Source: Methanolobus sp. ZRKC5
GTDB lineage: Archaea; Halobacteriota; Methanosarcinia; Methanosarcinales; Methanosarcinaceae
NCBI RefSeq assembly: GCF_038446525.1
Contig: NZ_CP151792.1
Location: forward strand, 2,108,001-2,172,000
Length of the DNA: 64,000 bases
Reading direction: 5' to 3'
Part shown: in pieces, positions 4,063-38,767 of the stretch
How the letters are laid out: each line of letters begins with the position of its first letter
Position numbering within the stretch: the stretch's first letter is position 1
Notes under the pieces: generated by a model
Told to the model about the DNA's origin: nothing
Databases searched by the model: none
Seen by the model: the letters and a program-made list of their open reading frames with translations, nothing else
Program-made: the position numbers and the translations under genes

Positions 4063-5232
4063 ATGTATGAGTTGAGAATAGCCCTGAGGCACATAAGTGC
4101 ACGCAAGCGTCTTACTTTCTTTGCAGTGTTTGCGGTAGCTCTGGCTATTGCAGTTATTGTTGTTCTTATGTCCATGATGACCGGGTTCACTGAAGAGCTG
4201 ATCTCCACCACAGTGGAGAATTCTCCGCATATTGTTGTGAGCTCAGCAGATCAGAAAGAGGATTATGTTCATTTCTACAATTATTACTCTGGGCAGATAG
4301 CTGCTATGGATGGAGTCGAGGCTGTGTCTCCTGTATTCATTGGGCAGGCGGCTATAAGCCATAAGGATAATGCAGAGGGCATTAATCTCAATGGAATTGA
4401 CCCAATTGCAGAAGATGCTGTTATGCGCATATCTGATGACATTGTTTCAGGTGATCTCTTTGCTCTTGGTAGGAGTAACAATGGTATCGTTATTGGTGAC
4501 AAGCTTGCAGAGGATCTTGAAGTTGTCACAGGACAAAATGTTGACATTGTCATGCCGGGGTTTGGAGCTTCATCCTACAAAATAATAGGCATATTCAGCA
4601 GCGGAACTCCGAACGATGAAAGCATTGCTTACATTCGGTTTGACTCTGCCCTGGATTTCTTTGATGAGAATGGTGTTGCAAGCAAGATCAATATAAGGGT
4701 TGTCGATCCTTTCCAGGCGGATATTATTGCGAATTCAATTGAGCGGGACACAGGGCTTGATGCTTTAAGCTGGATAGAGACTAACAAAGAGATTCTTGAT
4801 CTGCTCAATACGCAGGTATTGATCGTGTGGCTGTATTATGGTCTGATATACATGATAGCAGGTTTTGGTATTGCTAATACTCTTTTTACAGTTGTCATGG
4901 ATAAGAAAAGTGAGATTGGAATGTTAATAGCAATGGGTGCTTCTAAGAGAAATATCACGATGATATTCCTTCTTGAGTCGCTCATACTGGGCACAATGGG
5001 TGTATTACTTGGATGCGTGATGGGTTATTTAGGTTCAACTGCGCTGTCCTCATATCAAATAGACCTTCCTCAGGAGATGTACTTCGGTCTGACAACTCTT
5101 CCGCTTAAAACTGATATCATGAACTATGCTTATGCAATTGTATTTTCTTTCATTATCAACATAGTTGCAGGTGTTTATCCTGCAAGGCGTGCGGCTGAAC
5201 TTGATCCTGTGGAAGCCATCGAAAGTGCATGA
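4063..5232 (+). CDS. FtsX/MacB-type ABC transporter permease (no ATPase alongside)
   Basis: A 389-residue permease of the LolC/DevC/MacB kind. TM1 follows the basic start ALRHISARKRLTFFAV, an extracytoplasmic domain spans about residues 40-265, and three more membrane segments follow (about 268-290, 315-340, 355-375). The cytoplasmic motif KSEIGMLIAMGASKRNITMIF and the C-terminal AGVYPARRAAELDPVEAI are the family hallmarks. Such permeases do not move substrate through a channel but couple ATP use to extraction or signalling at the outer membrane face. No ATP-binding gene is next to it; the nearest is at 9510-10187. It is a paralogue of 5897-7054, which faces it. Confidence 0.88.
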   Translation: MYELRIALRHISARKRLTFFAVFAVALAIAVIVVLMSMMTGFTEELISTTVENSPHIVVSSADQKEDYVHFYNYYSGQIAAMDGVEAVSPVFIGQAAISHKDNAEGINLNGIDPIAEDAVMRISDDIVSGDLFALGRSNNGIVIGDKLAEDLEVVTGQNVDIVMPGFGASSYKIIGIFSSGTPNDESIAYIRFDSALDFFDENGVASKINIRVVDPFQADIIANSIERDTGLDALSWIETNKEILDLLNTQVLIVWLYYGLIYMIAGFGIANTLFTVVMDKKSEIGMLIAMGASKRNITMIFLLESLILGTMGVLLGCVMGYLGSTALSSYQIDLPQEMYFGLTTLPLKTDIMNYAYAIVFSFIINIVAGVYPARRAAELDPVEAIESA

Positions 5233-5280
5233 TCGTTCTTGTCTTTCTAACTAAAGCATAAAAGTTTGTTCGTATATGGA

Positions 5281-5297
5281 CGAAAGGTATATATATA
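5281..5297 (+). promoter_or_regulatory. Strong BRE/TATA promoter element
   Basis: CGAAAGG at 5281-5287 is a good BRE, directly followed by an alternating TATATATATA at 5288-5297. An archaeal start site would be expected about 25 bases downstream, near 5317. No coding region begins there, which points to a non-coding transcript. Confidence 0.6.
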
Positions 5298-5317
5298 CAA
5301 AAGACGTTTGTGTAATT

Positions 5318-5426
5318 GCGAACGGGTTTATTTTTAGGTCTATTTATTAGTACCTCTCCAATACACTCCAACCACCATACCTGTACATTCAACCCCCCCT
5401 TTGCCCGTTCGCATCCCTATGTTTTT
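5318..5426 (+). ncRNA. Candidate small RNA closed by a 9-bp stem
   Basis: GCGAACGGG at 5318-5326 pairs perfectly with CCCGTTCGC at 5404-5412. The 5' arm starts just where transcription from the 5281-5297 promoter should begin, and a seven-T run follows at 5419-5425. The enclosed loop is strikingly C-rich (CCTCTCC, CCAACCACC, a seven-C run), which could expose anti-Shine-Dalgarno sequence. The T-run also overlaps the TATA-like region of the next gene, so its role as terminator is ambiguous. Expression is inferred only. Confidence 0.45.
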
Positions 5427-5451
5427 TTATAAAGCGTACCAATAACGTTTC

Positions 5452-5868
5452 ATGAAGATTGTGATCGAGACGCCGAAATACAGTTTTTTTAAATATAATA
5501 AAAAAGGATCACAGTTCGTCAAAGAATTCCTGTCACCTATACCGACAATATTCAATTATGGTTTTATTGAAGGGAGCATTGCCGATGATGGCATGGAAAA
5601 AGATGTGATGGTGATAGGTCCCCGAATGCCACAAGGTGCAGTTTTCGAAGTGATGAAAACAGATGGTCTTGTCCGTTTCATTGATGATTCTCTTGTGGAT
5701 AACAAAGAGATAGTCTATTTAGAAGGTTCCTTCTCAAAACCAGTCTTTTACTTTTACTTTCATCTCTATGCAACATTCAAGATAATGTACTATCTTATTC
5801 TCAAAAAAAAGATGTCAGTTTGCAGATTCGAGGGAATTGTCTGGTACAACGGGGAGCCGGAAAAATAA
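5452..5868 (+). CDS. Inorganic pyrophosphatase-like protein with altered active site
   Basis: A 138-residue protein whose first half follows family I soluble pyrophosphatases: IETPKYSFFKYNKKG (compare the E-P-K-x-S-x-x-K-Y start of the family), then SPIPTIFNYGFIEGSIADDG and KDVMVIG. In true pyrophosphatases the metal site reads D-G-D-P-x-D-V-L-V. Here it reads D-G-M-E-K-D-V-M-V, so the second aspartate, which activates the nucleophilic water, is replaced by methionine. The C-terminal region (FYFYFHLYATFKIMYYLIL) is hydrophobic and does not match. It may be a binding or regulatory relative rather than an enzyme. Family assignment is from memory of motifs. Confidence 0.55.
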   Translation: MKIVIETPKYSFFKYNKKGSQFVKEFLSPIPTIFNYGFIEGSIADDGMEKDVMVIGPRMPQGAVFEVMKTDGLVRFIDDSLVDNKEIVYLEGSFSKPVFYFYFHLYATFKIMYYLILKKKMSVCRFEGIVWYNGEPEK

Positions 5869-38636: not shown

Positions 38637-38767
38637 TACGTACCCATACGTACGCCAAAAATCTCCGGACCTCTAACACGTATCGCTATGCTGCGGTGTA
38701 GCCTAAGAGGTAACTGAGCCGGGGCTCTGTTGCCTTGGCATGCGTACGTACCCATACGTACGTATGC
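38637..38767. repeat. Paired TACGTA palindromes (possible origin or operator)
   Basis: The 18-mer TACGTACCCATACGTACG occurs at 38637-38654 and again at 38745-38762. Each contains TACGTA-CCCA-TACGTA. The second copy extends to a 13-4-13 inverted repeat (GCATGCGTACGTA with TACGTACGTATGC, one mismatch, 38738-38767). The 90 bases between them are GC-richer than the surroundings. The pair lies between the micro-gene operon and a ribbon-helix-helix gene, a place for a partition, replication or repressor site. Confidence 0.6.

Follow-up and report, generated by a model that had tools for sequence, protein, structure and literature searches.

In the genome of Methanolobus sp. ZRKC5, which is 3.05 Mb on one contig, the window (the whole stretch of DNA that was analysed, 64,000 nucleotides) holds a spacer of 219 bases between the end of an FtsX gene at 5232 and the start of the next gene at 5452, the length that the initial annotation had given. 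That annotation had read the spacer as a likely small RNA, and a sequence scan found CGAAAGG, the TATA box, both stem arms, the T-run and the loop motifs where it had placed them, base for base. Two palindromes, at 5269-5284 and 5307-5322, are features that it did not contain. The predicted transcription start, near 5317-5320, follows from the usual spacing between a TATA box and the start. The features of the locus are as follows.

5269-5284, plus strand: palindrome 1, TTCGTATATGGACGAA, operator-like, differing from TTCGTA-N4-TACGAA at one position and reaching into the BRE at its 3′ end
5281-5287, plus strand: BRE-like element CGAAAGG, from the sequence
5288-5297, plus strand: TATA box TATATATATA
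5307-5322, plus strand: palindrome 2, TTTGTGTAATTGCGAA, imperfect and operator-like, covering the predicted start, with the 5′ stem arm as its right half
5317-5428, plus strand: sRNA-A, predicted transcript of about 105-112 nt, from conservation and fold
5317-5327, plus strand: 5′ arm of the closing stem, core GCGAACGGG at 5318-5326, from fold and alignment
5328-5402, plus strand: loop, open, C-rich and G-poor, with CCTCTCC at 5353-5359, CCACC at 5372-5376 and C7 at 5393-5399
5403-5413, plus strand: 3′ arm of the closing stem, core CCCGTTCGC at 5404-5412, from fold and alignment
5422-5428, plus strand: T-run (T7), likely terminator, from the sequence
5426-5433, plus strand: TTTATAAA, which may serve the next gene as a TATA box of its own, about 22 nt ahead of the ATG
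5452-5868, plus strand: downstream gene, 138 aa, inorganic-pyrophosphatase-like (PF00719), a neighbour outside the RNA

The 9-bp stem with its T-run is the single perfect inverted repeat of its kind on both strands of the window, where the kind is defined by at least 9 bp, at least 5 G/C, a loop of 40-110 and six T within 22 nt. Under the same definition, 20 first-order Markov versions of one strand contained none. Once the T-run is dropped from the definition such repeats are not rare, with four on the plus strand and 2.05 expected. The predicted fold has 11 pairs (5317-5327 with 5403-5413) and an energy of -22.6 kcal/mol, with a z score of -4.7 against 200 shuffles, none of which folded as well. 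The opposite strand folds too (z = -3.1), so the strand is not set by folding alone. The mean composition of the loop is 34% C and 7% G across 70 distinct sequences, and its mean unpaired probability is 0.74. The RNA reads as non-coding: on inspection of the alignment, an ATG-led frame in the loops of relatives is missing from the window copy, and insertions and deletions (e.g. in L004) shift the frame. Searches with Rfam 15 returned no family in the window at gathering score and none in 5200-5500 at E ≤ 5, and the RNA was likewise unmatched in 12 related loci, where one RNase P was found elsewhere. ARAGORN reported nothing in the window.

Relatives carry the same unit. With a 202-bp spacer query, BLAST gave a match at E ≤ 1 in 55 of 60 relatives and at E ≤ 3.4e-6 in 26 of 60, and many of the matches weaker than the latter value are at chance level. 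Alignment from the 5′ arm recovered the same stem in 29 of 30 loci (L028, which has no anchor, was left out), and CCGTTCG occurs once in the 3′ range searched in all 29 aligned loci, given that this alignment was anchored on the 5′ arm alone. A search for the stem pair CGAACGGG...CCGTTCG gave matches in 77 of 111 Methanosarcinaceae genomes, comprising 27/27 within the genus Methanolobus and 50/84 outside it; a reversed control pattern gave 0-1 matches per strand in each genome listed. The 34 genomes with no match include all eight of genus g8, and as the pattern is exact, a missing match does not prove absence. A promoter-plus-stem pattern run against 84,980 species genomes returned 39 stretches, 38 from Methanosarcinaceae, two of which are labelled Euryarchaeota only and were placed in the family by sequence, and one bacterial chance match (L115). 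Conservation of the stem in close relatives, on which the initial annotation had made its reading depend, is thus what was found. Stem and promoter are nearly invariant and equally conserved; the loop is conserved within a genus, differs between genera and is C-rich throughout. Within Methanolobus, conservation of the loop is strong around AGTACCTCTCCA and ACCTGTGCATTCAA. The end signal is more variable, since in the 45 nt that follow the stem the longest run of T reaches at least 5 in 55 of 75 members and just 3-4 in the other 20. Many of these 70-75 sequences were chosen by stem or promoter pattern, which partly guarantees stem pairing and palindrome 2 in the set; L229, one of 20 fetched, was left out as its stem failed the exact pattern.

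All 27 Methanolobus genomes have both sRNA-A and a paralogue, sRNA-B. In 26 of them the stem-pair pattern finds the two members; in G003 it finds sRNA-B, and sRNA-A, with a loop longer than the pattern allows, was recovered by BLAST. The sRNA-B of the window genome lies at C1:2482084-2482159 on the minus strand, between genes that we take, from reading their translations, to be HflX-like and PHP-domain genes, and most sRNA-B loops contain CCACCAATCCTATCCAACCACCC. In the loci read from Methanosarcina, Methanococcoides, Methanohalobium and ANME-3, a member sits in the same HflX-like/PHP place, for which reason the sRNA-B site looks like the ancestral one and sRNA-A like a Methanolobus duplicate. 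Further copies occur elsewhere: in one genome of genus g3 (G074, L243) a tandem pair is separated by about 230 bp, each member having palindromes and stem, and two members with the box (L079, L304) stand about 300 bp from each other in a Methanosarcina record, where the loop of the second is very different and less C-rich. The family is multi-copy, extends across Methanosarcinaceae including Methanosarcina, and has no entry in Rfam 15. Five family strings, looked for in the text of papers, matched 80 of them; the ten listed, on Streptococcus suis, have in common with the family generic strings of the stem arm alone.

From its sequence and distribution, the unit is very probably a real, independent RNA gene. 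It is intergenic and carries, at the level of sequence, a promoter and end signal of its own, with BRE/TATA, T-run and fixed spacing. An alternative account makes it a 5′ leader, attenuator or riboswitch-like, on one transcript with the downstream gene. Such a leader would fit the pyrophosphatase-like gene that comes next on the same strand in 24 of 26 genus loci, starting 39-72 nt after the stem, as well as the PHP-domain gene that follows instead, again on the same strand, at sRNA-B and in other genera; in the loci read, the RNA directly precedes a same-strand gene. However, the very change in the identity of the downstream gene between copies argues against a cis leader, and the RNA is intact where no partner was detected, the pyrophosphatase-like gene being missing from L016 and, with a degenerate start, not detected in L022. 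The T-run after the stem and the TATA-like sequence about 22 nt before the ATG of the window's downstream gene also speak against a shared transcript; as a TATA box, TTTATAAA would possibly give that gene a leaderless mRNA. A leader is accordingly to be regarded as distinctly unlikely.

The stem itself poses a different question. The initial annotation had proposed covariation as a check, and among 29 sequences none of the nine core pairs covaries and no double change occurs, because the stem hardly varies. Such invariance in distant genera calls for some other reason. Since the 5′ arm lies partly in palindrome 2, this overlap may account for the invariance of GCGAAC, but not for that of GGG, and one sequence serving both as DNA switch and as RNA clamp would explain a stem that lacks covariation. 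A rival reading makes the locus a DNA element only, an operator cluster whose inverted repeat is an accident of operator half-sites: the 5′ arm contains the half-site GCGAAC, the 3′ arm contains its complement, and the stem does not covary. This is very improbable, as the GGG/CCC outside the palindrome is equally invariant, the loop motifs are conserved, and stem and loop persist in paralogue B, where palindrome 1 is gone. The small RNA of the initial annotation, with a start at the stem base directed by BRE/TATA and an end in the T-run, is thus strengthened by conservation of the whole unit and by its persistence without the downstream gene, whereas the covariation that it had named as a check is absent, and pairing with Shine-Dalgarno sites goes no further than C-richness by itself would.

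The promoter palindromes point to the control of the gene. Of 75 members, 56 have palindrome 1 (TTCG-N8-CGAA) at a fixed place, -50 or -49 relative to the stem, and the 19 members without it are mainly sRNA-B copies; in Methanolobus, sRNA-B has lost palindrome 1 and kept palindrome 2, stem and loop. Exact copies of TTCGTA-N4-TACGAA are rare in the genus (0-3 per genome); most of those in the genus loci read accompany the sRNA, a HesB/IscA-type gene (PF01521) or a single intergenic site that has no explanation. A box with at most two mismatches was found within 200 nt upstream of the HesB/IscA-type Fe-S gene at 28 of 30 loci, including all 26 in the genus (loci L256-L283; one match without a locus, in G036, was left out), and in none of 386 control windows of 200 nt. 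The box is followed by a TATA box, as in the sRNA promoter, and in the window genome lies at C1:1522456-1522471. The two HesB genes among the 30 from which it is missing belong to Methanosarcina G106 and to G030 (genus g5). In Methanosarcina the exact box occurs in 20 of 30 genomes; of 20 exact-box stretches fetched, 15 hold the sRNA promoter and five do not.

Palindrome 1 is probably an operator, and the pattern of sites points to a small shared regulon of the sRNA and the HesB/IscA-type gene. Control of the sRNA by the TTCGTA-N4-TACGAA box is considered highly likely on these grounds. The same box before an Fe-S carrier gene makes iron, Fe-S or redox state the probable kind of signal, a reading that is held here with about even confidence.

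Related palindromes were seen in other settings. In at least four genus genomes, a long AT-rich region without clear genes (L032, L061, L073, L076; G000:C1:189044-189059) contains repeats together with a conserved palindrome like TTCGTA-N4-TACGAA; it might represent an origin of replication or a further RNA gene. Within the window, TACGTACCCATACGTA occurs twice, at 38637-38652 and 38745-38760, 108 bp apart, and since the pair recurs at two other places in the genome it is probably part of a repeated element. Some order-level relatives (L054, L055, L058; G050, G054, G046) have 5-10 exact TTCGTA-N4-TACGAA sites, one of them between genes that, from their translations, are presumably radical-SAM/NifB-like and FprA-like.

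A tentative identification of the regulator, with rather less than an even chance of being correct, is MsvR, which would make the RNA an oxygen- or redox-controlled sRNA; this proposal is compatible with control by the box and adds a name for the protein. MsvR is described in PMC3729527 as a redox-sensitive repressor whose own promoter has the partial inverted repeat TTCGTAN4TACGAA. This motif, as written there, matches the sRNA box. A search of 25 genus genomes found an orthologue in 24, and the one without it is 70% complete; that of the window genome (G000:C1:268669-269406) has a helix-turn-helix domain (PF01022) and a weak V4R domain. The msvR promoters of the genus nevertheless differ from the sRNA box: 22 of them read TTCG-TT/CT..AG-CGAA with no A at position 6 (22 of 30 loci were used, the start not being found in the others or the locus lying outside the genus), whereas A stands at this position in 23 of 24 sRNA-A boxes and 25 of 26 HesB boxes. 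In the same study, moreover, the motif by itself is insufficient for MsvR binding (PMC3729527). Either MsvR tolerates both types of box, or a second regulator uses a related site. The msvR promoter box, TTCGYT-N4-AGCGAA, stands directly before the TATA box and is related to that of the sRNA but distinct from it (L144-L167).

Other regulators were considered and set aside. The operator of NrpR is GGTA-N6-TACC, and by inspection GGTATATATATACA in the window is similar but absent from most relatives. Two V4R-domain proteins (L050, L051) showed no N-terminal helix-turn-helix when their translations were read by eye, and neither is encoded by the gene of the MsvR orthologue.

The initial annotation had proposed that the C-rich loop could mask Shine-Dalgarno sites. 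Start regions are indeed better partners for the loops of sRNA-A and sRNA-B than coding controls are, but the same is true of shuffled loops of equal composition: over 50 rough gene calls of the window, 77 of 100 and 54 of 100 shuffled loops reached the observed contrast. The starts had themselves been chosen with the anti-Shine-Dalgarno, a bias that all loops share equally. Because shuffled loops do as well, composition alone explains the pairing in the window. A search for targets, for which the initial annotation had also called, found no conserved start region with 14-17 nt of complementarity among the stretches read. The searches used complements of the loop-A stretch ACCTGTRCATTCAA (one mismatch, 27 genus genomes), of TAGTACCTCTCCAA (one mismatch) and of a loop-B stretch (two mismatches); twenty and twelve stretches were taken around a part of the matches, and those read lay mostly inside coding regions or were scattered, none being a conserved start region. 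One repeated match, TTGGAGAGGTACTG, falls in several genomes within the coding sequence of what we take from its translation to be a phosphoglycerate-mutase-like gene, and was attributed to protein conservation, not to a start site.

By analogy with the Methanosarcina mazei RNAs sRNA154 and sRNA41, masking of Shine-Dalgarno sites by the loop is plausible, and pairing in trans with chosen mRNAs is judged somewhat more likely than not. The loop could instead bind a protein or the ribosome, as a decoy or an anti-Shine-Dalgarno sponge with no specific mRNA partners. Loops that are C-rich, G-poor and open would suit such a role, as would start-region pairing that composition alone explains and the lack of a conserved long target in the searches. 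Against this, loops are strongly conserved within the genus, CCACCAATCCTATCCAACCACCC in most sRNA-B copies being an example, beyond what a rule of composition would need. A decoy or sponge is thus an unlikely function, and trans pairing is the reading carried forward.

The explanation preferred for the locus as a whole, held with moderate confidence, is a self-standing non-coding RNA gene with a box-regulated promoter and a clamp-held loop that acts in trans. The gene would occupy 5317-5428 and give a non-coding RNA of about 105-112 nt, with RNA polymerase starting at the stem base from the BRE/TATA and stopping in the T-run. A DNA-binding regulator would occupy the TTCGTA-N4-TACGAA box over the BRE and probably also palindrome 2 over the start, and from the position of these sites the bound protein would be expected to block the promoter. 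The box shared with the HesB/IscA-type gene suggests that in Methanolobus the regulator would probably respond to iron, Fe-S or redox state. The near-invariant clamp would then hold the C-rich loop open, and the loop would act in trans, most likely through short pairing with G-rich translation-start regions and possibly through protein binding. Paralogues with the same clamp and start site and with other loops (sRNA-B and the tandem copies) suggest a scaffold with a changing loop. A bolder extension, speculative and rather unlikely as a whole, is that the RNA is an archaeal counterpart of RyhB- or OxyS-type sRNAs of iron or oxygen stress, under a repressor shared with an Fe-S carrier gene and with a second operator inside its closing stem, and that the clamp scaffold has been copied with new C-rich loops for new mRNAs.

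For few archaeal sRNAs are the signal, the regulator and the target all known, and a promoter palindrome common to an Fe-S gene is a concrete handle for finding the signal and the regulator in this case. Methanosarcina, one of the genera with the family, includes genetically tractable species, according to PMC3729527. If the link to redox or iron is true, the family would allow a direct test of post-transcriptional adjustment of Fe-S-heavy metabolism in strict anaerobes.

Several known systems work in ways that resemble the one proposed. Bacterial CcsR-type and cuckoo sRNAs have CCUCCUCC loops, C-rich and anti-Shine-Dalgarno, in repeated copies, and OxyS and RyhB are bacterial sRNAs under stress or iron control; the likeness to all of these is in working only, and no kinship with these bacterial RNAs is implied. 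Among archaea, a study of Methanolobus psychrophilus R15 gives 195 sRNA start sites and nine cold-induced conserved sRNAs (PMC5378194), and RNAs of the present family may already be listed, nameless, among those sites. The sRNA154 and sRNA41 of M. mazei are, like sRNA-A, intergenic sRNAs of the same family of organisms; both respond to nitrogen, sRNA154 covers a ribosome binding site with a loop, and for sRNA41 the masking of several such sites is proposed (PMC5867862). No nitrogen response is claimed for sRNA-A, which is likened to them by description and not by sequence. The pair sRNA162 and sRNA171 of M. mazei offers a further parallel, as a duplicated methanogen sRNA pair with conserved promoters, although sRNA162, as described in PMC3510493, differs from sRNA-A in being longer (fragments extend to nucleotide 191), in having two target domains and in its flanking genes.
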